A DNA stretch of 64,000 bases from Catellatospora sp. IY07-71 (GTDB taxonomy: Bacteria > Actinomycetota > Actinomycetes > Mycobacteriales > Micromonosporaceae): NCBI RefSeq assembly GCF_018326265.1, contig NZ_AP023360.1, positions 7,251,001 through 7,315,000 of the forward strand, given 5' to 3'. The notes beneath the pieces are model-generated. The model saw only the letters and a program-made list of their open reading frames with translations. It had not been told where the DNA came from and made no database searches. A program made the position numbers and the translations under genes. Of this stretch, positions 3,203 to 12,830 are shown one piece after another. Numbering within the stretch: the stretch's first letter is position 1; each line of letters starts with the position of its first letter.

Positions 3203-4519
3203 ATGGCGCGAGACCAGCAAGATCCCCTTCCTTTTCTCGTCGAGATGCCGGATCCGCCCGGCGACGAGGGCGCAGTAACGCAAGCACAGTTTCGATATCA
3301 GGCCGAGGTCATTGCGCGCTGGTGCTTTCGCTTGTTCGATGCCGATGGCCCGATCGCGATTGTCTGCGAAGACCATGAAGACTTTCATGTGGTACATCGG
3401 GACATTAGGACAATTGATCTCATCTCGGTCAAACATCGCGGCCGCAATCCGTGGCCTCTCGGCGAGCTGTGCATTGATGGCGGCTTGGCGCACCTATTCG
3501 ATCGTTGGTCGACGCTTCGAGCGGCTGGGCGCATTCCCCGAGCCGCTCACGTTTCGAATGCTGGCTTGGGAACGGGGGTCCGTTCGCCGAGCCTCCTGCA
3601 GGATATGATCAGCGCGTCCAACCGTGACGACGAGCAGTGGCTCACTTGGAGCAAGATCCTTTCTCGACAGTTCCTCATCGCCGCGCGGCAGAAAGAACTG
3701 CCGACGCTGCCTGACAGGGAGCCGCCGCAGCGTCCGGAGCAAATGAGCGATGACGACGGCCTGGTTCTGGACGTCGCCGATTTCCTCCGGGTACTGACGT
3801 TCGTCACCGCCCCACACATGGGCGACCTCGCCGCGACAAACATCGTTGAGGTGGTGACGCCCCTCTTTCAAAGATGGGGTTGGGATACGCGTGACGCCCA
3901 GCCGTCCCATGCGAGTGTCTGTGCAATGGTGGAACAACGGTCTCGCTCGCTTGGCGGCCGCAAGCTGGATCTCGTCCGTAATCTCGGCGTGTCGGCCACC
4001 TGGCCCATCGGCATAAGCCGCGAACATCGGTTGCGTGAGCGGATGATCGATGCCGACTCGGTACGCGCGGCCTTGGTCCGCGGGGGTGAGATCCCATTGT
4101 TCCACCATGACTTGGAGATGTTGCCCGCCCCCGGCGGGGCGGACCTGCGTCGGAAGATGTCGCAGGGTCGCCTAAGCGTCACGCAGCACCAGCTCGCGGA
4201 GAGACTTCGCACAGCCTGGTACAACGTACGCAAGAGGGCGCTTCCGGATCTCATAGGAGACGCTGCGGCCGTAGCGCAGATCGAAGCTGAGGTTCTTGAG
4301 CAGGTTATCGATGCTCAGGATGCGGCAGCGTCCTCTGGGGACGAATACGGCGGTGCCTTGTTCCAGCAACTTCGCGAGCGGGTCGCGGCATCGTCGTTCC
4401 GGAGCAGACCGCCAATCAGGATCAACGACCAGCATGCACTCGGCGTCGCCTTTGAGTTGTCCGACCAGTGCGACTTCGACTTCCTGCCTCCTGCCACAGT
4501 GGCCGAGGACTCGCCGTGA
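3203..4519 (+). CDS. lmuA: LmuA/DdmA-like Cap4-type (DUF4297) nuclease subunit of an ABC-3C system
   Basis: A 438-residue protein. Residues about 25-80 match the Cap4/DUF4297 double-stranded-DNA nuclease fold: AQFRYQAEVIARW helix, then the acidic strand IAIVCED (Glu56) and DLISVKHR (Asp72, Lys77), a PD-(D/E)XK arrangement. The residue two before the lysine is Ser rather than the usual Gln/Glu. The rest is a helical region typical of Lamassu effector subunits. ATG 3203 is preceded by AAGGGGA. It is followed with a GTGA overlap by a small middle component and then a Rad50-like ATPase, the order A-C-B seen in Lamassu/DdmABC operons. By analogy the nuclease is held inactive and is released when the ATPase senses foreign DNA ends. 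Codon use is less GC-biased than in the flanking genes. Confidence 0.8.
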   Translation: MARDQQDPLPFLVEMPDPPGDEGAVTQAQFRYQAEVIARWCFRLFDADGPIAIVCEDHEDFHVVHRDIRTIDLISVKHRGRNPWPLGELCIDGGLAHLFDRWSTLRAAGRIPRAAHVSNAGLGTGVRSPSLLQDMISASNRDDEQWLTWSKILSRQFLIAARQKELPTLPDREPPQRPEQMSDDDGLVLDVADFLRVLTFVTAPHMGDLAATNIVEVVTPLFQRWGWDTRDAQPSHASVCAMVEQRSRSLGGRKLDLVRNLGVSATWPIGISREHRLRERMIDADSVRAALVRGGEIPLFHHDLEMLPAPGGADLRRKMSQGRLSVTQHQLAERLRTAWYNVRKRALPDLIGDAAAVAQIEAEVLEQVIDAQDAAASSGDEYGGALFQQLRERVAASSFRSRPPIRINDQHALGVAFELSDQCDFDFLPPATVAEDSP

Positions 4520-5082
4520 CCGATCCGCTGAGACGGCGATCGGCTGTTCTGGCCCGTCAGCAGGCAGCAGCCCGCACTATCGCGCAGGAGGCTGCGTTCC
4601 ACCAGGCACGGGTATTGCTGATCGTGGACGCCTTTTCGAGAGACGCTCGCGGCTTGCGGGGCCTGGCGCGGCTGGCTCGGCTCGACTTCGTGATCAGGTT
4701 CCCAAATGTCCTGGACCGCGTTGATGCCGAAGGTGTCGGCTGGCCCACGGGCTGCAGGACGCAGCGGCTTGAGCAGCTTGCCGACGAGGCTGCACTGGCC
4801 CACCGCCGTTACGGACTCTGGACCGACCGCTACAACCTGATCGTTGGCGGCCTGGTTTCACGGCGCCTTGTCACCCTTGTCTCAGGCAGAGTATTCGAGC
4901 CGCTCACAACAGCCGAGGGCCATGCGGCTTCGCTAGAACTGCGGAACTCCTCCGCTTGGTCACTGGTCGCCAACCGTGCTGCTTACCTAAGTCAGGCAAT
5001 GAACCTTTCAGCCGAGCGCCTTGACGAAATAATTCGTCCCGCGTTGCGTGAAACCGACCAACTCCCGAGGGAGCTCGGATAG
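4516..5082 (+). CDS. lmuC: LmuC/DdmB-like middle component of an ABC-3C system
   Basis: A 188-residue, largely helical protein. The GTG start at 4516 overlaps the upstream stop (GTGA), and its own stop overlaps the next start (TAGTG), so the three genes are translationally coupled. A segment around RRYGLWTDRYNLIVGGLV (about residues 95-112) resembles the compact helical domain of ABC-three-component middle components. In Lamassu complexes this subunit bridges the ATPase heads and the nuclease. It has no catalytic motif. The assignment rests mainly on size, position and this segment. A longer frame from 4468 runs back into the nuclease gene and has no ribosome site. Confidence 0.7.
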   Translation: MTDPLRRRSAVLARQQAAARTIAQEAAFHQARVLLIVDAFSRDARGLRGLARLARLDFVIRFPNVLDRVDAEGVGWPTGCRTQRLEQLADEAALAHRRYGLWTDRYNLIVGGLVSRRLVTLVSGRVFEPLTTAEGHAASLELRNSSAWSLVANRAAYLSQAMNLSAERLDEIIRPALRETDQLPRELG

Positions 5083-7043
5083 TGGCCACGAGATTGCGGG
5101 TTAAGAGCATCACCGTTCAAACAGCCGATGCCCAAAAAGTCTACGAGTTCGACAATCCGCTTACCGCTCTCATTGGCTCTGTGGGCACGGGCAAATCCTC
5201 GCTGCTGATGCTGTTGAAACATGCTCTTGGTGGTCGGGCCGCGCTCACGCCGGCGGTGCGCGAGAACGTGACGAACGTGATCGTCGATCTTGAAGTGGGG
5301 GACGTTCGGCTAGCGTTGCGCCGCAGCGTGCCCGACCGAGTTGGGACGGTCGATGTCATCGATCCGTTCACCTTCGGGATTGAGCGCAGCCTTTCAGTCA
5401 GGGCGGGAGCAGGTGTCGAGAGTGTGTCCGACTATCTTCTGACACTCCTCGGCTTTCCACGTGAGCGAGTTCCGACACGCAGACGAGGCGCTACCGAAGA
5501 GACTGTCGCACTGACCTTCCAAAACCTGTGGGAATACGTCTACATCGAAGCAGTGGACATCGACCGCGAGATCGCCGGCCACCGCCAGCATTGGAGCAAC
5601 AGGGCCCGACTCGAGCTGTTCAAGCTCATGTTCAAGTTCTCTGACTCCGAGGTGAATCGGCTGCGTCGACAGGAAGGAGAGCTGAACTCCGCCGTCAAGC
5701 GCTACAAAGAACAGGTAGACGCGGTGAAACTGTTCCTGGAGGCTGGTCAGACCCCTCCAGCCGCAGAGCTGGCTGCCAAGCGTCGTGACATCCACGCGAC
5801 GCTCACGACCGTAAGCCGGGCACTGCAAAATCTCCGTTCGGCGACAACTCCACCCAACGAGAGCGATCCGCTCTTCGTCGAACTCGATTTCCTGATGCAG
5901 CGCGAACAGAGACTTCAGACCGAGGCAGCGACTCGTGCGGGAACGGTACAGACTCGCCGTGCGCTACTGGCACAGCTGGAGCTTGACCTATTGCGCTTGG
6001 ACCGATCCGATGCTGCTGAAGAGGCTCTCGGGCGTTTCGATTACTTGACCTGCCCACGCTGTTTCCAGGACCTACAACACCACAGCCACGGCTTGTGTCG
6101 CGTCTGCGGCCAGCCTGATCCGCTGCTGCCTGTTAGCGCTGCCACTCATGCCGACGCGCGCCTGCGCCTCGAAGAGCAGATATCAGAAACTGCGGCGCTT
6201 CTTGAAGAGGACGCGATAGGAGCGCGCACCGCCGAGGAGGAACTTCTCGCCGCCCGGCTGCACGTACTGCGAGCACGTGCGCAGATAGACCGAATCAGCC
6301 GTGAGCGCATTGTACCAGCAATCGCGCAAATTGAGGATTTCAGCGCGCGTCAGGCCACCCTTCTCGCCGAACTGGAACGGCTCGATGAGTTCAAGCGGAT
6401 GTGGGGAATTTTCGCAGAGTTCGAGTCGAAACATCGTCAGACGACCCACGAACTTCGCCAAGTTCGCTTGGCCATTAGGCAGCACGGCGCCACGATCATG
6501 GAAGCCCGTCAATACCTAGCCGAGTTCGAAGACGCGTTCCGATATGAACTTAGCCAACTAAACATTCCTGGTGTCAACGTACAAATGGCGTCCATCGACC
6601 CGGAGGACTTTCTTCCACGCATCGGTGGGGCGAGGTTCGAGGAGGTTCAGGCATCCGGAGGTGGCGTTACAACAGCGATACGTGTCGCATATAACCTAGC
6701 TCTTCTCCGAGCGGCGATTGACCATCCAGACATATTGCTGCCGTCACTACTCATCATTGATTCGCCACAGAATGCTATTGGACGTAACGAATCTGATGTC
6801 AGACTCAGTCAGCGAATTTATGAGCGCCTTTATAGTATAACCAATGTGGCCGGAGATCGTCTTCAGATCATCGTTGCAGACAATGAGCTTCCCCCGGCAC
6901 CGCCGAAGACGGACTGGCGCATGCTGCCCACTATCAAACTCGACTATGGGCTGGATGCCATGGTGCCGGGAGTCTTCCACCCCGGCATTGACTCAGTGAC
7001 CGTGCGAGTCGAGGACGCGAGCGCCGATGATGTCGGTGACTGA
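5082..7043 (+). CDS. lmuB: LmuB/DdmC-like SMC/Rad50-type ATPase with Cys4 hook
   Basis: A 653-residue ABC-type ATPase split by coiled coils. Walker A is GSVGTGKSS (residues 32-40). Long charged helices follow to about residue 310. In the middle is a four-cysteine motif, C324-P-R-C327 and C339-R-V-C342, placed like a Rad50 zinc hook. After the second coiled coil comes a signature-like ASGGGVTTAIRVAYNLAL (about 523-540) and Walker B LLIIDSP with Asp560. The residue after Asp560 is Ser, not the usual Glu. Such proteins dimerise on DNA and are the sensor of Lamassu/DdmABC phage and plasmid defence. GTG 5082 shares its G with the preceding TAG. The low-GC codon choice (for example TTT ATA GTA TAA-like strings near 6830) suggests transfer. 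Confidence 0.85.
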   Translation: MATRLRVKSITVQTADAQKVYEFDNPLTALIGSVGTGKSSLLMLLKHALGGRAALTPAVRENVTNVIVDLEVGDVRLALRRSVPDRVGTVDVIDPFTFGIERSLSVRAGAGVESVSDYLLTLLGFPRERVPTRRRGATEETVALTFQNLWEYVYIEAVDIDREIAGHRQHWSNRARLELFKLMFKFSDSEVNRLRRQEGELNSAVKRYKEQVDAVKLFLEAGQTPPAAELAAKRRDIHATLTTVSRALQNLRSATTPPNESDPLFVELDFLMQREQRLQTEAATRAGTVQTRRALLAQLELDLLRLDRSDAAEEALGRFDYLTCPRCFQDLQHHSHGLCRVCGQPDPLLPVSAATHADARLRLEEQISETAALLEEDAIGARTAEEELLAARLHVLRARAQIDRISRERIVPAIAQIEDFSARQATLLAELERLDEFKRMWGIFAEFESKHRQTTHELRQVRLAIRQHGATIMEARQYLAEFEDAFRYELSQLNIPGVNVQMASIDPEDFLPRIGGARFEEVQASGGGVTTAIRVAYNLALLRAAIDHPDILLPSLLIIDSPQNAIGRNESDVRLSQRIYERLYSITNVAGDRLQIIVADNELPPAPPKTDWRMLPTIKLDYGLDAMVPGVFHPGIDSVTVRVEDASADDVGD

Positions 7044-7092: not shown

Positions 7093-7220
7093 TTCGTGGC
7101 CAATCGGGCGACGGACGTGTACGGATGTCAATGTGTACGCTACCATGTCGGAATTGCGATAGTCCTGCAACGATCAGCATCGCATCACGTTCTGTTGGAT
7201 GGCGTTTAGGAAGTGTGGTC

Positions 7221-8597
7221 ATGCCACGACGGCTGGTCTCGGTCGATCCGGCTTTTTCTCTACAGCTCAAGGCACTCCGTGAACAGCGAGGACTCTCGTT
7301 GCGTCGCCTTGGCCAGCAGGTGCATTGCTCTCATGGATATCTGTGGGACCTGGAAGTCGGCAAGAAGCAGCCAAGCGTTTCGGTCGCCGCACTACTGGAT
7401 GCGGTGCTCGGCGGCAATGGTGAATTGTCAGCCATGGTGCGCGAGGTGTCAGCCGACAATGGCGGACATAAAGTAACCCTCGACGCTGGTAACACTGCGA
7501 CTGGGCACGGGCTAGAGTTTGCGCCGGACTGGCGGCAGGGTATTGCCGTCGCCGTAGACCTTTGGCAGGAAGATGTGCAGCGGCGAAACATGCTCCGCGC
7601 GGTGGGATTCAGTGCTACAGCGTTTATGTCGCCTGCGATGCGGTGGCTTGTCTCGCCCATGGACGAACATCCTTCCGGCGACGGCGATCGGCTGATCGGC
7701 GAGCCGGACATCGAGATGGTCAAGCGGATCACCGCGACCTACCGCACGCTCGACAACCAGTTCGGCGGCGGTCACGTGCGAGAGAGCGTCGTGCGCTTCC
7801 TCGATGGCGAGGTAGCCGCGATGCTGCGGGGCCGTTACAACGCGAGTACCGGCCAGGCTTTGTTCTCAGCCGCAGCCGAGGCGACACAGTTGGCGGGGTG
7901 GGCGTCGTACGACATCGGCATGAACGGCCTCGCTCAGCGGTACATGATCCAAGCGTTGCGGCTGGCATACGGTGCCGGTGACCGTGCCCTGGGCGCGGAG
8001 ATCCTGGCGGCGATGAGCCATCAGGCCGCCTACCTGCGGGCCTCTTCGCACGCCGTCGACCTCGCTCGTGCGGCGGGGCGCGTGGCGGCGGAAGCCGGGA
8101 TCATGGCGATCGAGGCGGAGTCCGCGGTCCTGGAAGCGCAGGGCCACGCATCCGGCGGCGATGAGGCCGCCTGCGCTAAGGCCCTGGATCGAGCCGAGCG
8201 CGCGTTCGACAAGGCCGATCGCACCAGGGCACCGCAGTGGATCGGGTACTTCGATGAGTCGTACCTGGCGGCCAAGTTCGGCCACTGCTTCGCCACTCTC
8301 GGCAGGGGCGATCTCGCACAGCGGTTCGCCGAGCGCTCTCTCGACATGGACGGCCGGCATTACGCGCGCGGGAAGCAATTCAACCTGGCGTTGCTGGCGA
8401 CCGCACACGCGCAGGCAGGCGACCTCGAGCAGGCGAGCGCTGTGGGAATGCAAGCGGTCGACGCGGCCGAAGGGCTGGACTCTATGCGCGCTCGCGACTA
8501 CCTCGGTGAGCTGTCGGACCGGCTGGGCAAGCATGTCGGCCTGCCCGCCGTGCGCGCATTCGCCGAACGGGTCCGGCCTGTGCTCACTGCGGTCTAG
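7221..8597 (+). CDS. XRE-family regulator with a helical-repeat (TPR-like) sensor domain
   Basis: A 458-residue protein. Residues about 9-65 form a lambda-repressor-type helix-turn-helix (LKALREQRGLSLRRLGQQV followed by HCSHGYLWDLEVGKKQPS). The remainder is a series of alanine-rich helix pairs, such as GQALFSAAAEATQLAGWASYD and LAQRFAERSLDMDG, like the TPR-type domains of actinobacterial one-component regulators that sense peptides or small ligands. ATG 7221 is preceded by AGGAAG with a 7-base spacer; the longer frame from 7125 has no ribosome site. It converges on a NUDIX gene with a four-base CTAG stop overlap. Given its position it is a candidate regulator of the radical-SAM locus to its right. 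Confidence 0.85.
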   Translation: MPRRLVSVDPAFSLQLKALREQRGLSLRRLGQQVHCSHGYLWDLEVGKKQPSVSVAALLDAVLGGNGELSAMVREVSADNGGHKVTLDAGNTATGHGLEFAPDWRQGIAVAVDLWQEDVQRRNMLRAVGFSATAFMSPAMRWLVSPMDEHPSGDGDRLIGEPDIEMVKRITATYRTLDNQFGGGHVRESVVRFLDGEVAAMLRGRYNASTGQALFSAAAEATQLAGWASYDIGMNGLAQRYMIQALRLAYGAGDRALGAEILAAMSHQAAYLRASSHAVDLARAAGRVAAEAGIMAIEAESAVLEAQGHASGGDEAACAKALDRAERAFDKADRTRAPQWIGYFDESYLAAKFGHCFATLGRGDLAQRFAERSLDMDGRHYARGKQFNLALLATAHAQAGDLEQASAVGMQAVDAAEGLDSMRARDYLGELSDRLGKHVGLPAVRAFAERVRPVLTAV

Positions 8598-9157
8598 AGC
8601 TTGCCCTGCGCCCTCAGTAGAAGGACAGCAAGCAGGCCGGAAACCGATCCCGCGCCGACGATCTCGCCCAGGCGCATTCGCCGTTCGACGTCGTCGAGCG
8701 GGATCCACTCGACCCGTTCGGCCTCGTTGATGTCAGGTGCGGTGCCGACGTGATCGGCGCCCCGGCCCAGGTAGACGAGGTTTGTCTGATCGATGGTGCC
8801 TACCATGGGCTGGAAGGTCACCAGCGGCTCAAGAGACCGTGGCCGCCAGCCGGTCTCCTCCTCGACCTCGCGTGCCGCACACAGGGCCGGATCCTCGTCA
8901 GGGTCGATGTATCCGCCGGGTAGCTCCCACACCCAGCGGTCGAGGATGAAGCGATGGCGCCACATCATCAGCACGCGCTCGGCGTCATCGACCACGATCA
9001 CCATTGCTGCTGTCGGCACGCGGAGTACGTACTGCTCGAAGCGGACTCCGTTGGGCAGCTCGACGTCGGCGATGCTCAGCGCCGCACGCCGGGTGTCGTC
9101 GACCACCCGTTCGCCGTGAATCGTCCACTCGCTGGCCCGACGCCCGTCCACCTGCAT
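8594..9157 (-). CDS. NUDIX hydrolase (ADP-ribose pyrophosphatase-like)
   Basis: A 187-residue protein with a complete Nudix box at residues 82-104: G82, E88, R96, E97, E100, E101 and G103 in the G-x5-E-x7-REUxEExGU pattern. The N-terminal WTIHGERVVDDTRRAALS segment and the strand pattern resemble the ADP-ribose pyrophosphatase group, which cleaves nucleoside diphosphates linked to another moiety. It is transcribed away from the radical-SAM operon across a 256-base region that holds two palindromes. Its stop overlaps that of the XRE regulator. A substrate cannot be read from the sequence. Confidence 0.88.
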   Translation of the reverse strand: MQVDGRRASEWTIHGERVVDDTRRAALSIADVELPNGVRFEQYVLRVPTAAMVIVVDDAERVLMMWRHRFILDRWVWELPGGYIDPDEDPALCAAREVEEETGWRPRSLEPLVTFQPMVGTIDQTNLVYLGRGADHVGTAPDINEAERVEWIPLDDVERRMRLGEIVGAGSVSGLLAVLLLRAQGKL

Positions 9158-9413: not shown

Positions 9414-9644
9414 GTGAACGCCGCAGTGAACGCGATCAAGCCGACCAGCGCTTGCCTGCCTCAGGCACAGCATCTGGCGCGGGTACATTGCCCGATCTCG
9501 TGGCCAGAGGGTGATCGCTGCCTCAACTGCCACGAGACGTTCCCGTGCACGACCTACAGCTGGGCCTTCGATGCGCTCATCGACGCCGGGTGGAGCACCA
9601 CTGAGGTCCTGGCCCTGGACGTCCGAACAGGACCATGGTCATGA
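9414..9644 (+). CDS. Small Cys-motif protein, first of three
   Basis: A 76-residue protein of unknown function. It has C-x2-C-x5-C in RCLNCHETFPC plus an upstream Cys (HCPISW) and a C-terminal amphipathic helix (SWAFDALIDAG). The cluster of four cysteines suggests metal binding or redox. The GTG start is preceded by GGGAGGG with an 8-base spacer. Its stop overlaps the next gene (ATGA). Two more genes in the same operon carry the same kind of motif, and all lie just ahead of a radical SAM enzyme, so a role in that locus is likely but unproven. Confidence 0.7.
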   Translation: MNAAVNAIKPTSACLPQAQHLARVHCPISWPEGDRCLNCHETFPCTTYSWAFDALIDAGWSTTEVLALDVRTGPWS

Positions 9645-9826
9645 TCATCACCGCCGACAAGCCGGACGGTGGCATCGAGATGGATGCGCGCTCGATCCTG
9701 CTGGTGCACACGCCCGACGAAGACGGCCTGTGCCAGGGCTGTTACGAGTTCACCTGTACGTTCGCCCGGTTTCCGTGCTCTCAAGCTCGGTGGGCTCAGG
9801 CAGTGCAGGACGGCGACGTCTCATGA
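9641..9826 (+). CDS. Small Cys-motif protein, second of three
   Basis: A 61-residue protein with C-x2-C-x4-C-x6-C (LCQGCYEFTC then FPC) followed by a short helix rich in Ala and Gln. Start ATG 9641 overlaps the preceding TGA; an alternative ATG lies at 9635. It is clearly related in motif layout to the proteins at 9414 and 10122. I do not recognise a named family. It probably binds a metal or acts as a partner of the downstream enzyme. Confidence 0.65.
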   Translation: MIITADKPDGGIEMDARSILLVHTPDEDGLCQGCYEFTCTFARFPCSQARWAQAVQDGDVS

Positions 9827-10125
9827 AGCCACTACATGCCAAGGTGCTGGCGGTGCGCAGCGTGCCCCGGCAGCAGATCTACAAGGTCTTGCTAGCTGAG
9901 CCCGGCCGGGCTTGGACCATCCGTGAGCTTGCCGGATCGCTGCCGGACGTGTCGGTGGAGGCGGTGACCGCGACTCTGCACCTGATGCTGGGCGAGCGGC
10001 TGATGGACCAGGTGCGCCACGCCCGAGGCCTGACCTTGCAGCTCAACGACGAAGGCCGCACGGCGATTGAGCAGATCGTTCAGGGCTGGTCCGCCGTCCC
10101 GACCACCGGGGAGAGTCAGCCGTGA
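9823..10125 (+). CDS. Winged-helix DNA-binding-like small protein
   Basis: A 100-residue protein. Residues about 15-75 read as a winged helix: QQIYKVLLAEPGRAWTIREL, then a recognition-type helix VSVEAVTATLHLMLGERLM and a beta wing (HARGLTLQLN). It starts with ATGA overlap on the previous gene and ends with GTGA overlap on the next, so it is made together with the Cys-motif proteins. It may regulate the cluster or bind the precursor leader peptide. Small winged-helix folds do the latter in many RiPP pathways, where the RRE has this topology (inference only). Confidence 0.65.
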   Translation: MKPLHAKVLAVRSVPRQQIYKVLLAEPGRAWTIRELAGSLPDVSVEAVTATLHLMLGERLMDQVRHARGLTLQLNDEGRTAIEQIVQGWSAVPTTGESQP

Positions 10126-10430
10126 AGCCGATCCGAGCCACGGTGCCGGCCGCCGCACTCCTCGGCGTCGATGCCGCCCGCCGTGTCATCTCCGAACATC
10201 TGCGTTCCGATGTCGGCGGGCGGTGTCTGTCCTGCCGAGAACTGGAGCCCTGCGCTCAACGTGCTACGGCGCATGCCGCACTGTTCGGTCATGATCGCCA
10301 GCTTCCTCGCCGACGGCCCATGGAGCTGATCGGCGCTGGTGGGGACTTCGGTGCCGGGGTGGGGTCGACGTTTCACGCCTTCGGCACGTCGGGCGGCGTC
10401 CGGGCGCATAGGGCCGGTTCATCGCCCTGA
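10122..10430 (+). CDS. Small Cys-motif protein, third of three
   Basis: A 102-residue protein whose N-terminal half carries RCLSCRELEPC (C-x2-C-x5-C) followed by an Ala-rich helix. These correspond to the motif and helix of the two small proteins upstream. The C-terminal 40 residues are Gly-rich and low in complexity. The GTG start overlaps the winged-helix stop. A 194-base gap separates it from the radical SAM start, where a second promoter could sit. Confidence 0.6.
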   Translation: MKPIRATVPAAALLGVDAARRVISEHLRSDVGGRCLSCRELEPCAQRATAHAALFGHDRQLPRRRPMELIGAGGDFGAGVGSTFHAFGTSGGVRAHRAGSSP

Positions 10431-10624: not shown

Positions 10625-11827
10625 GTGCATCAGCTCATCGCAACCCCGTTCCTCGACGACGGCCATCTCATCCTCAAACCCGGCAGCGAGCAGGGCATGC
10701 GCATTCCCGTCAGGCACTACGAGCAGCTTCGTGACCTGTCCGCGCGTCACGGCCCAATACCGGACTGGCTGGTCAACGCCGCGGTGAGCGGCTGGGGGCT
10801 GCGCCTGCGTGACGAGCCGGTCAACCAGGCCGTGACCGTGCGCCAGCACAGCAGTTACGGCTACGGGCGGGCGTCGTGGGAGCTCAACCTCGGCTGCAAC
10901 TACGACTGCGAGCACTGCTACCTCGACATCAAGCGCTTCGAGGGCCTGGCCTGGGACCAGCGGGTCCAGCTCCTGCACATCCTGCGTGATGCCGGGGTGG
11001 TGTGGCTGCAGCTGACCGGCGGCGAGCCGCTGATCGACAAGCTGTTCACCGAGACCTACACGTACGCGTGGGACCTCGGCATGATGATCTCGATCTCGAC
11101 CAACGCATCCCGGCTGTGGAAGCCGGAGATCCTCGACCTACTGCGCACCCGACCGGCGTACCACATCACGATCAGCGTCTATGGTGCCACGGCCGACAGC
11201 TACGACAGGCTCGTGCGCCGTCGCGGCGCGTTCGACAAGTTCCACCGGGGCCTGGCCGCCGCCAGCGAGGCCGGTCTGACCATGAACCTCAACCTCGTCG
11301 TCACAAAGACCAACGACACCGAGGTCGATGGCATGATCGCCCTCGCCGAGGGGTTCGGGCTGCCCTACCACGTGTTCTCGAACATGTCCCCGACGATCAT
11401 GGGCAGTGCCCGGAGCCTGCCCGCGCAGTCGATGCCGCTGCTCAAGGCACGCAGGCCGTTCACCGGCTGCAACGCCGGGCACACGTTCTTCCACGTGGAC
11501 CCGCACGGCATGGCGTCGATCTGCAAGGTCGGCCGGGATCCCAACATCGACCTCCTCGCCGAAGGCGTGGAGGGCCTGCGCCGACTCGGCGGCATCGCCG
11601 ACGGCCTGCTCGCCAGGACCGGCGGGTGCAGCGGGTGCAGCGTGCAGGGCACGTGCAACACGTGCATGCCTCTGGTCCGGCTGTACCGGCAGGCGAAGTC
11701 ACCGATGGAGCGCTACTGCCAGCACCGAGAAAGTGGGGAGGTGATTGTCAATGGCACCGACAGCCACAGCGACCCGACCGGCACCGGTCGTGGTCGCGCT
11801 GTCCCAGCGTCCGCAGCCGCGGCCTGA
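10625..11827 (+). CDS. Radical SAM/SPASM peptide-modifying enzyme
   Basis: A 400-residue enzyme. The radical SAM cluster motif is C91-x3-C95-x2-C98 (LGCNYDCEHCYL), followed by TGGEP (131-135) for SAM binding and the usual barrel strands. The C-terminal SPASM-like region holds C282, C300, C335, C338, C344, C347 and C365, suitable for auxiliary iron-sulfur clusters. Such enzymes install thioether, C-C or other crosslinks in ribosomal peptides. The start is GTG 10625, with AGGAGGTGAT at 10611-10620 giving an 8-base spacer; the longer frame from 10478 has no such site. The last 25 residues, after C365, are low-complexity and overlap the start of a peptide gene in another frame. The N-terminal 80 residues may recognise the leader. 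Confidence 0.85.
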   Translation: MHQLIATPFLDDGHLILKPGSEQGMRIPVRHYEQLRDLSARHGPIPDWLVNAAVSGWGLRLRDEPVNQAVTVRQHSSYGYGRASWELNLGCNYDCEHCYLDIKRFEGLAWDQRVQLLHILRDAGVVWLQLTGGEPLIDKLFTETYTYAWDLGMMISISTNASRLWKPEILDLLRTRPAYHITISVYGATADSYDRLVRRRGAFDKFHRGLAAASEAGLTMNLNLVVTKTNDTEVDGMIALAEGFGLPYHVFSNMSPTIMGSARSLPAQSMPLLKARRPFTGCNAGHTFFHVDPHGMASICKVGRDPNIDLLAEGVEGLRRLGGIADGLLARTGGCSGCSVQGTCNTCMPLVRLYRQAKSPMERYCQHRESGEVIVNGTDSHSDPTGTGRGRAVPASAAAA

Positions 11828-11918
11828 GGTGACGGAGATCGAGTTCGTCAACGTCGAGCAGACCATCCTGGCCGCGAACAAGTGCAACTGCAACTCCAGC
11901 GACGACAACCCGTACTGA
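11751..11918 (+). CDS. Candidate RiPP precursor peptide, 55 residues, nested start
   Basis: ATG 11751 opens a 55-codon frame ending at TGA 11916-11918. A strong ribosome site, GGGGAGGTG (11735-11743), lies 7 bases upstream, inside the radical SAM gene. The first 30 residues are Pro/Ala/Thr-rich and leader-like, then comes EIEFVNVEQTIL, and the C-terminus is KCNCNSSDDNPY with two cysteines spaced C-x-C. The first 77 bases overlap the enzyme's tail in another frame. A short acidic leader-core peptide beside a radical SAM/SPASM protein is the classic RiPP arrangement. The core residues are probably the C-x-C/Asn/Ser/Asp segment, though the FVN tripeptide would also suit aromatic-x-Asn cyclophane chemistry. 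I recognise no named precursor family. Confidence 0.75.
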   Translation: MAPTATATRPAPVVVALSQRPQPRPEVTEIEFVNVEQTILAANKCNCNSSDDNPY

Positions 11919-12014: not shown

Positions 12015-12830
12015 ATGAACCAGCGTGTGTCATGGCAAGACCTCCCCGCCGGCCTACGACGCCTGATCGAGGCCGAGGCGGGGGTCTTCGTCCGCGCCGA
12101 ACAGGTCGGCACCGGACACAACTGCCTGCTCGGCATGATCATGCACACGGCGCACGACCGCTACTTCCTCAAGGGCGTCCCCGCCGATCACAAGCGGGCC
12201 GTCTGGACCCAGAGCAACGAGGCCGCGATCAATCCCCACGTCCGGCACGTGTCGGCACCACTCATCTTCCACGTGGCCGCAGACGGCTGGGACGTGCTCG
12301 GCTTCCAATACCTCGACGGCCGCCACGCTGACCTCAGTCCCGGCTCACCGGACCTCCTGAAGATCACCTCGGGCCTGCAGGCGCTCGCCTCGATCCCAGC
12401 CCCTGACGGGCTTTCCCTGCGCACCGCCGATGACCGCTGGCGCGACTACGCCGGTGATCACGCCCACCTGCTCGCCGGAACGACAGTCGCGCATACCGAC
12501 TTGCACCGCCACAACATCCTGATCGACAGCTCGGCGAAGTTCATCGACTGGGCCTGGCCGACCCTTGCCGCGCCCTGGTTCGACACTGCCTGCGTGGGTC
12601 TGCAACTCATCCAGGCAGGGCACACGCCCAAGGACGCCGAGCTGTGGTGCCAGAACTCCCCTGAATTCGCCGCCGCCACCGACGAGGCGGTGTCAACCTT
12701 CGTCGCCGCCGCGAGGAGCCTGTGGGCAGAAATCAGTGCCGCCGACCCGCAGCAATGGAAGATCGAGGTTGCCGAGGCTGCCCGAGCATGGGCGGAGTAC
12801 CGGGGCGTTCAGCGGTCCGCGGACAGTTGA
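12015..12830 (+). CDS. APH-fold phosphotransferase at the end of the radical-SAM locus
   Basis: A 271-residue kinase-like protein. The Brenner-type catalytic loop is HTDLHRHNILID (H160, D162, N167) and the metal-binding Asp178 is in FIDWAWP. A weak nucleotide-loop segment (VGTGHN) and the lysine FLKG lie near residues 31-54. Family members phosphorylate hydroxyls of small molecules, and some act on peptides or antibiotics. The ATG at 12015 follows GGAGGAG; an in-frame ATG lies at 12003. Its placement behind the precursor and hairpin suggests self-resistance or tailoring, but this is inference. Confidence 0.8.
   Translation: MNQRVSWQDLPAGLRRLIEAEAGVFVRAEQVGTGHNCLLGMIMHTAHDRYFLKGVPADHKRAVWTQSNEAAINPHVRHVSAPLIFHVAADGWDVLGFQYLDGRHADLSPGSPDLLKITSGLQALASIPAPDGLSLRTADDRWRDYAGDHAHLLAGTTVAHTDLHRHNILIDSSAKFIDWAWPTLAAPWFDTACVGLQLIQAGHTPKDAELWCQNSPEFAAATDEAVSTFVAAARSLWAEISAADPQQWKIEVAEAARAWAEYRGVQRSADS

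Follow-up and report, generated by a model that had tools for sequence, protein, structure and literature searches.

A widespread family of short precursor peptides behind SPASM-type radical SAM genes, with a kinase or acetyltransferase partner that goes with one core residue

A radical SAM locus of Catellatospora sp. IY07-71 raises the question of whether a short reading frame that begins inside the maturase gene encodes a RiPP precursor and, if so, to what kind of system it belongs. The window analysed here is the whole stretch of 64,000 nucleotides from positions 7,251,001 to 7,315,000 of contig NZ_AP023360.1. As the original prediction had it, a 55-codon frame opens 77 bases before the stop codon of the radical SAM/SPASM gene, in another frame, behind a strong ribosome site (GGGGAGGTG) with a spacer of 7 bases to the ATG, and the 55-residue translation ends in KCNCNSSDDNPY (Table 1). 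The last cysteine of the enzyme, C365, was likewise correctly placed ahead of the overlap, with its codon at about 11717. The gene had also been thought too short for routine gene finding; this was wrong, since homologs are annotated on five plasmids, each as 'hypothetical protein', and as gp02 of Streptomyces phage Success.

Table 1. Features of the locus, in coordinates of the window.
Feature	Coordinates	Strand	Remarks
XRE-type regulator, possibly cassette-linked	7125..8597	+	named by reading; BLAST cluster 5
NUDIX-like gene	8594..9157	-	label by reading
Four small upstream ORFs	9414..10430 (9414-9644, 9635-9826, 9823-10125, 10122-10430)	+	outside the conserved unit
Radical SAM/SPASM-type maturase gene	10625..11827	+	PF04055, E 2.4e-15; GTG start chosen from ribosome site
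Candidate RiPP recognition element	10625..10840	+	three strands then three helices; full AlphaFold2 model, high confidence
Ribosome site of peptide gene	11735..11743	+	read from sequence
Precursor peptide gene, 55 aa	11751..11918	+	ATG at 11751, stop ends at 11918
Overlap of enzyme tail and peptide start	11751..11827	+	other frame, 77 bases
Probable core KCNCNSSDDNPY	11880..11915	+	its Tyr is the proposed kinase acceptor
APH-like kinase gene	12015..12830	+	K53, E69, H160-x-D162-x4-N167, D178; weak Pfam match

The enzyme carries the cluster motif C91-x3-C95-x2-C98, invariant in 53 sequences, and seven SPASM-type cysteines (C282, C300, C335, C338, C344, C347, and C365) that include the spacing CX2CX5CX2C, with C335 nearly but not fully invariant; the SPASM seven-cysteine pattern reads CX9-15GX4C, CX2CX5CX3C, C. 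The sequences closest to it come from Catellatospora loci. Its AlphaFold2 model has a mean pLDDT of 79.7, with values under 50 for residues 332-334 and 336-347 of the SPASM region. A Foldseek search with this model gave SkfB as the top match (E 6e-15, 389 columns, 18% identity), followed by BlsE, SuiB, and 5why, which we take to be CteB. The model places strands at residues 4-8, 14-17, and 24-27 and helices at 29-40, 47-57, and 66-69, and this N-terminal domain is likely a RiPP recognition element (RRE). Modelled alone, the domain gave no significant match in a fold search and no match to the PqqD family of Pfam, so that the RRE assignment draws on the full model. A viperin (pVip) or other defence function is not supported, as the enzyme scores 50.2 bits against a cut-off of 180 for the viperin equivalog and the PADLOC pVip match (E 3e-16) is limited to residues 84-232. 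In one homologous locus (L032:5998-7656), about 550 extra bases stand in the enzyme frame between query residues 32 and 34, a possible insertion or second start region.

A search for the peptide motif downstream of homologous radical SAM genes, the check proposed at the outset, showed that in 51 of the 57 homologous genome loci on the scanned contigs a short ORF with the same motif immediately follows the enzyme gene. Locus L049 has the motif and no stop before the contig end, and in five of the 57 (L060, L063, L066, L069, and L070) the radical SAM gene is partial. The peptide is also present in all seven plasmid loci fetched (an eighth match, H8, is a second record of the same plasmid and was left out), in all 23 IMG/VR loci (22 by pattern and L108 by reading), and in 88 of 89 further loci, the last one (L171) being cut by the contig end. 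In these loci, each complete SPASM-type radical SAM gene is followed directly by the precursor, and the claim of a precursor adjoining its likely maturase holds across homologous loci; neither homologous loci lacking the peptide nor conservation confined to the enzyme tail were seen. Fifty-two precursors, the window's included, align as one family with an invariant initial Met and an invariant Pro, one Cys and two Asp conserved at 90% or more, and the leader consensus E-x-E-x-V-x-D-x-D-x-L. The C-terminus had been judged to lie outside known precursor families, and indeed no NCBIfam or Pfam family fits: a scan of the 52 precursors returned isolated weak matches of one or two members each (E at least 0.004), and PHROGs had no match to the peptide of the window or of phage Success.

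For comparisons among loci, 161 of 179 loci had an enzyme of more than 300 aa and enough downstream sequence, and filtering at 97% identity left 141, made up of the window, 46 genome contig loci, 6 from plasmids or phage, 15 viral loci, and 73 from further genomes. Four partial enzyme matches (G836, the second of G759, G629, and G827) were left out. Two main core types are found, 90 loci having two cysteines (C-x-C-x3-D-D-x-P-Y and variants) and 51 having one (C-x-[DNE]-D-N-P-Y, usually extended by one or two residues), and the enzyme tree shows a switch between them only twice among the 141 loci. The cores of L144, L176, and L178 end in GDDNPN (frames read by eye and entered by hand). The enzyme gene is present twice in some genomes (G326, G870, G258, G277, and others), and the core type in some of them differs between the copies, as in G258, where L086 has a one-Cys core and L081 a two-Cys core.

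In the conserved unit, the enzyme comes first, then the peptide, then an APH-like kinase, a GNAT acetyltransferase, or both; an XRE-type regulator is often close by. One or both of the two tailoring candidates follow the precursor in 138 of the 141 non-redundant loci, with both present in eight. The predicted link of a conserved kinase to the peptide gene was supported, with kinase homologs downstream in 43 of the 57 genome loci. Among 34 aligned kinase sequences, K53, E69, H160, N167, and D178 are invariant and D162 is nearly so, and from these retained catalytic residues the kinase looks active despite its weak match to Pfam APH (E 0.0054, 17 bits vs 23.2, for the kinase of the window; E <= 0.01 for 20 of the 34 members). 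The GNAT gene, which lies between peptide and kinase or occurs without a kinase, forms a BLAST cluster found in 14 loci; two scanned members exceed the Pfam cut-off for Acetyltransf_1, and copies on plasmids are annotated as GNAT. After the kinase gene, several loci encode a protein of about 150-170 aa with the motif T-x-A-C-C-Q-D-x-G-E-A (BLAST cluster 45), at about 8120 in L044 and L048, 10209 in L109, 10085 in L115, and 10212 in L116. A protein similar to it by eye stands directly after the peptide at L093:5343-5855, in a locus with neither kinase nor GNAT.

The choice of partner goes with a single residue of the core. Scoring the kinase as present by tblastn (E <= 1e-4, up to 2.6 kb and often 1.3 kb downstream; L106, with fewer than 600 bases downstream, was left out of the kinase counts), we found that all 102 kinase-bearing non-redundant loci have Tyr at the last position of D-x-P-Y, one of them with Val in place of the Pro, whereas the 39 kinase-less loci have Tyr in 4, Phe in 11, His in 21, and Asn in 3. 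Fisher's test over the 141 loci gives 5e-29 with kinship ignored. On the enzyme tree, six changes of the kinase and five of the Tyr are needed. In a midpoint-rooted quick tree, the kinase-less loci form six clades, of which three lack the Tyr, two keep it, and a fourth is without it in three of four rows. A branch-length simulation of five irreversible Tyr losses yielded 53,016 draws that had 25-45 non-Tyr tips, of which 50 were equally clean, with Tyr on every kinase-bearing tip, and an independent-pairs test gave four to six pairs, none opposite, which are too few to reach 0.05. The kinase-less loci that keep the Tyr are L034, L045, L104, and L153 (the last with 1.3 kb downstream covered). 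Since L104 (Tyr) and its close relative L101 (Phe) differ at this position, the change there may be recent. Of the 106 loci with Tyr, 61 have it at the very end of the peptide, and the others have it close to the end.

Because the kinase occurs only with Tyr in the loci compared and keeps its catalytic residues, we infer that the Tyr hydroxyl of D-x-P-Y is the phosphate acceptor. No acceptor is named for the GNAT: Asn precedes the Pro in 44 of 44 GNAT loci with two-Cys cores vs 9 of 40 kinase-only two-Cys cores read by pattern (5 more two-Cys cores were unread by this pattern), but Asn also stands there in all 51 one-Cys cores.

These results lead us to favour, with moderate confidence, a radical SAM RiPP cassette with the Cys/Asp core as the site of enzyme action, possibly thioether formation, and the Tyr as the residue phosphorylated by the kinase. 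The RRE-like N-terminal domain of the enzyme would bind the conserved leader stretch, and the enzyme would then act on the C-terminal core, in which one or two Cys are kept along with acidic residues and, almost without exception, a Pro. Its target is probably the Cys/Asp part of this core, as Phe, His, or Asn can take the place of the Tyr, and by analogy the most likely product appears to be a thioether that joins Cys to Asp or to a residue next to it. Where present, the kinase would phosphorylate the Tyr as a tailoring or self-protection step. In GNAT-only loci the Tyr seems dispensable, being mostly replaced by Phe, His, or Asn, and acetylation may replace phosphorylation. No protease cluster recurs in the cassette flanks, and the product is thus probably released by a host protease. 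A cyclophane-type ring crosslink of the near-terminal aromatic residue is unlikely as a general rule, given the same three replacements.

The distribution of the cassette is patchy. Within the class, 16 of 394 genomes are positive for the enzyme, the window's own included; the figures are 25 of 250 genomes in one family and 70 of 392 in one genus, probably Streptomyces. Relatives occur on eight PLSDB records and in one phage, Streptomyces phage Success (two records), where gp03, the enzyme, annotated only as an oxidoreductase, gp02, the peptide MNTATTTTEETGTVVLVDDVEALTGDITPGCGDDNPYN, and gp01, the kinase, lie together at one genome end (NC_073472.1, L090). IMG/VR adds 23 loci on 22 contigs predicted to be viral, several of them near-identical to each other (L121, at 22% identity, stands outside these counts). 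A scan of cassette neighbours in seven viral loci found a portal protein (L113), RecE and RecT (L110), a primase-type protein and ParB (L101), DnaB (L108), and an amidase (L115). One protein each was scanned from L098 and L116, and neither had a phage match: the former matched nothing and the latter a histidine-kinase-like ATPase. The cassette is best explained as accessory cargo that is mobile, is often carried by prophages, and frequently has XRE-type regulators nearby.

The kinase and the GNAT might instead be immunity enzymes, so that a toxic mature peptide would be inactivated in its producer by phosphorylation of the Tyr or by acetylation elsewhere. APH and GNAT are classic drug-inactivating families, one or other of them follows the precursor in nearly every locus, and a prophage setting suits bacteriocin-like cargo. 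Against this stand the eight loci that contain both enzymes and the lack of a widely recurring transporter, the commonest candidate, an ABC ATPase cluster, being found in 5 of 58 loci; we regard immunity as a possible function, less favoured than the cassette reading above.

The regulators bear on a different function, in which the XRE-type regulator close to the cassette would sense the peptide as a signal that steers development or prophage behaviour. XRE types (BLAST clusters 2, 5, and 8, named by reading) lie in the fetched flanks of 37 of 58 loci, and the DUF5753 type (cluster 2) in those of 18. The 17 genomes behind these 18 loci contain 4-66 DUF5753 genes each, and 60 genomes surveyed for density had at most 31 matches in 7.9 Mb. 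Even at the richest density (66 in 7.5 Mb), about 6 of the 58 loci would be expected vs the 18 seen (binomial 2e-5, with relatedness and differences in flank length left out of account), and the link to this regulator is thus enriched about threefold or more, without being exclusive. Among 17 viral loci in the tree, 11 have a DUF5753-type gene and 3 another XRE-type gene by BLAST; phage Success (gp06) and, by the Pfam model, the viral records of L098, L101, and L115 have one DUF5753 gene each. XRE-type regulators of several types are, however, very common in these genomes, and prophages may hold them for other reasons, so that a signalling role seems unlikely as it stands. Hardly better placed is a broader proposal, in which a phosphotyrosine-bearing radical SAM peptide, encoded on temperate actinophages and plasmids and made by the lysogen, would be read by or act through the XRE-type regulator as a host weapon or signal, its end group being set to phosphorylation or acetylation by a swap of enzymes; this we offer as a doubtful, if conceivable, extension of the cassette reading.

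The NUDIX-like gene adjoins the XRE gene in the window and in several Streptomyces loci. For the four small genes upstream, among them the Cys-motif genes that had been taken for part of the system, homologs turned up at a single one of the 57 loci (L015, likewise Catellatospora), and their membership in the cassette is ruled out beyond this genus. Farther upstream in the window, at 3203-7043, three adjacent ORFs of 438, 204, and 653 aa possibly form a defence module; by reading, the 653-aa product resembles an SbcC/Rad50-type ATPase with a CxxC...CxxC stretch.

That the product is a small redox cofactor or a metal-binding peptide, in the manner of PQQ, mycofactocin, or chalkophore, is improbable: MftC ranks second among the NCBIfam models for the enzyme, at 74 bits against a cut-off of 265, and a C-x-C could bind metal, but the occurrence in 16 of 394 genomes of the class, the carriage by phages, the replaceable aromatic residue, and the single Cys of 51 of the 141 cores all argue otherwise.

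The overlap that first drew notice is incidental to the cassette. Among 52 loci measured, the enzyme and peptide genes overlap by 65 or 77 bases in 5, all of them Catellatospora and the window among them, and by 1-4 bases in 21, and they are separated by a gap of 1-36 bases in 26. A defining role for the overlap is therefore not supported, and the extra enzyme tail is lineage-specific, given that 47 of the 52 loci do without it. Residues 364-400 of this tail have pLDDT values under 50. The related suggestion that the peptide frame, and not the enzyme tail, is constrained stands in part. Between the window and L016, another Catellatospora, the overlap has 22 differing sites; read in the peptide frame, 10 of them are silent and 12 change the residue, and read in the enzyme frame the numbers are 4 and 18, so that the peptide frame looks the more constrained on these few sites. 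Outside the overlap, however, the peptide genes of this pair differ by 2 silent and 13 residue-changing substitutions, and constraint between the two copies is thus weak overall. That the ORF arose by chance, with the enzyme tail as the true product of this stretch, fits the open tail frame of the five Catellatospora loci but is refuted by a peptide motif kept in more than 100 other loci and by the 47 loci of measured spacing that have no long tail.

The RiPP family is thus real, widespread, and, as far as found, unnamed; its members come from actinobacteria of soil and from some phages that infect them. The suggestion of an undescribed RiPP class is supported in part, through the precursor beside its likely maturase, the unmatched C-terminus, and the conserved kinase; the overlap and the small Cys-motif genes are not shared traits. 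The main text of open-access papers gave no description of the precursor family. The decRiPPter study reports 42 candidate Streptomyces families (PMC7794033), among which this one may be included; the consulted portion of a paper on RREs (PMC12710340) does not mention it, and the radical SAM passages of PMC12924846 deal with a phage attachment site in a different gene. What is new is the precursor family, the choice of kinase or GNAT tied to one residue, and the carriage by phages; radical SAM RiPPs are a known kind. The family is common, with enzyme-positive genomes making up 70 of 392 in one genus, yet NCBIfam, Pfam, and PHROGs hold no model for its precursor. The link between kinase and Tyr yields a prediction about a RiPP tailoring enzyme that can be tested directly, and with a phage-borne cassette, radical SAM peptides would join the cargo of temperate phages. 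The laboratory host S. lividans served for the isolation of phage Success, so that the function of the cassette can be tested by gene removal.

Several known systems share single traits with this one. Mycofactocin (MftA/MftC) and PQQ also combine a short peptide that contains Tyr with a radical SAM enzyme of the SPASM type; in contrast, the enzyme of the window scores far below the MftC cut-off, the Tyr is replaceable, and the distribution is patchy and mobile. Sublancin, in SP-beta, is a precedent for a modified-peptide gene set on a temperate phage, with glycocin chemistry and in Bacillus, whereas here radical SAM enzymes are found in actinophages. SkfB, the sactipeptide maturase of the sporulation killing factor, is the best match among solved folds at about 18% identity, but it has a twitch domain where the enzyme of the window has SPASM-type cysteines, and the sporulation killing factor system is not known to include a kinase or GNAT. 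SkfB is described as an auxiliary-cluster radical SAM enzyme, and SkfB and CteB as having an N-terminal RRE (PMC8326336). PapB forms thioethers in Cys-X3-Asp/Glu motifs and accepts other spacings (PMC9413430); the common two-Cys cores contain C-x3-D as in this ranthipeptide motif, but the PapB substrate has six such motifs and the cores here have at most one, the one-Cys cores having C-x-[DNE] instead. Finally, PadeK, the kinase of the lasso peptide paeninodin, phosphorylates the C-terminal Ser of its precursor (PMC9266682). The APH-like kinase proposed here would resemble PadeK in acting on a hydroxyl at the precursor C-terminus, and would differ from it in that the acceptor would be a Tyr, at or close to the end of a radical SAM precursor, and not the Ser of a lasso precursor.
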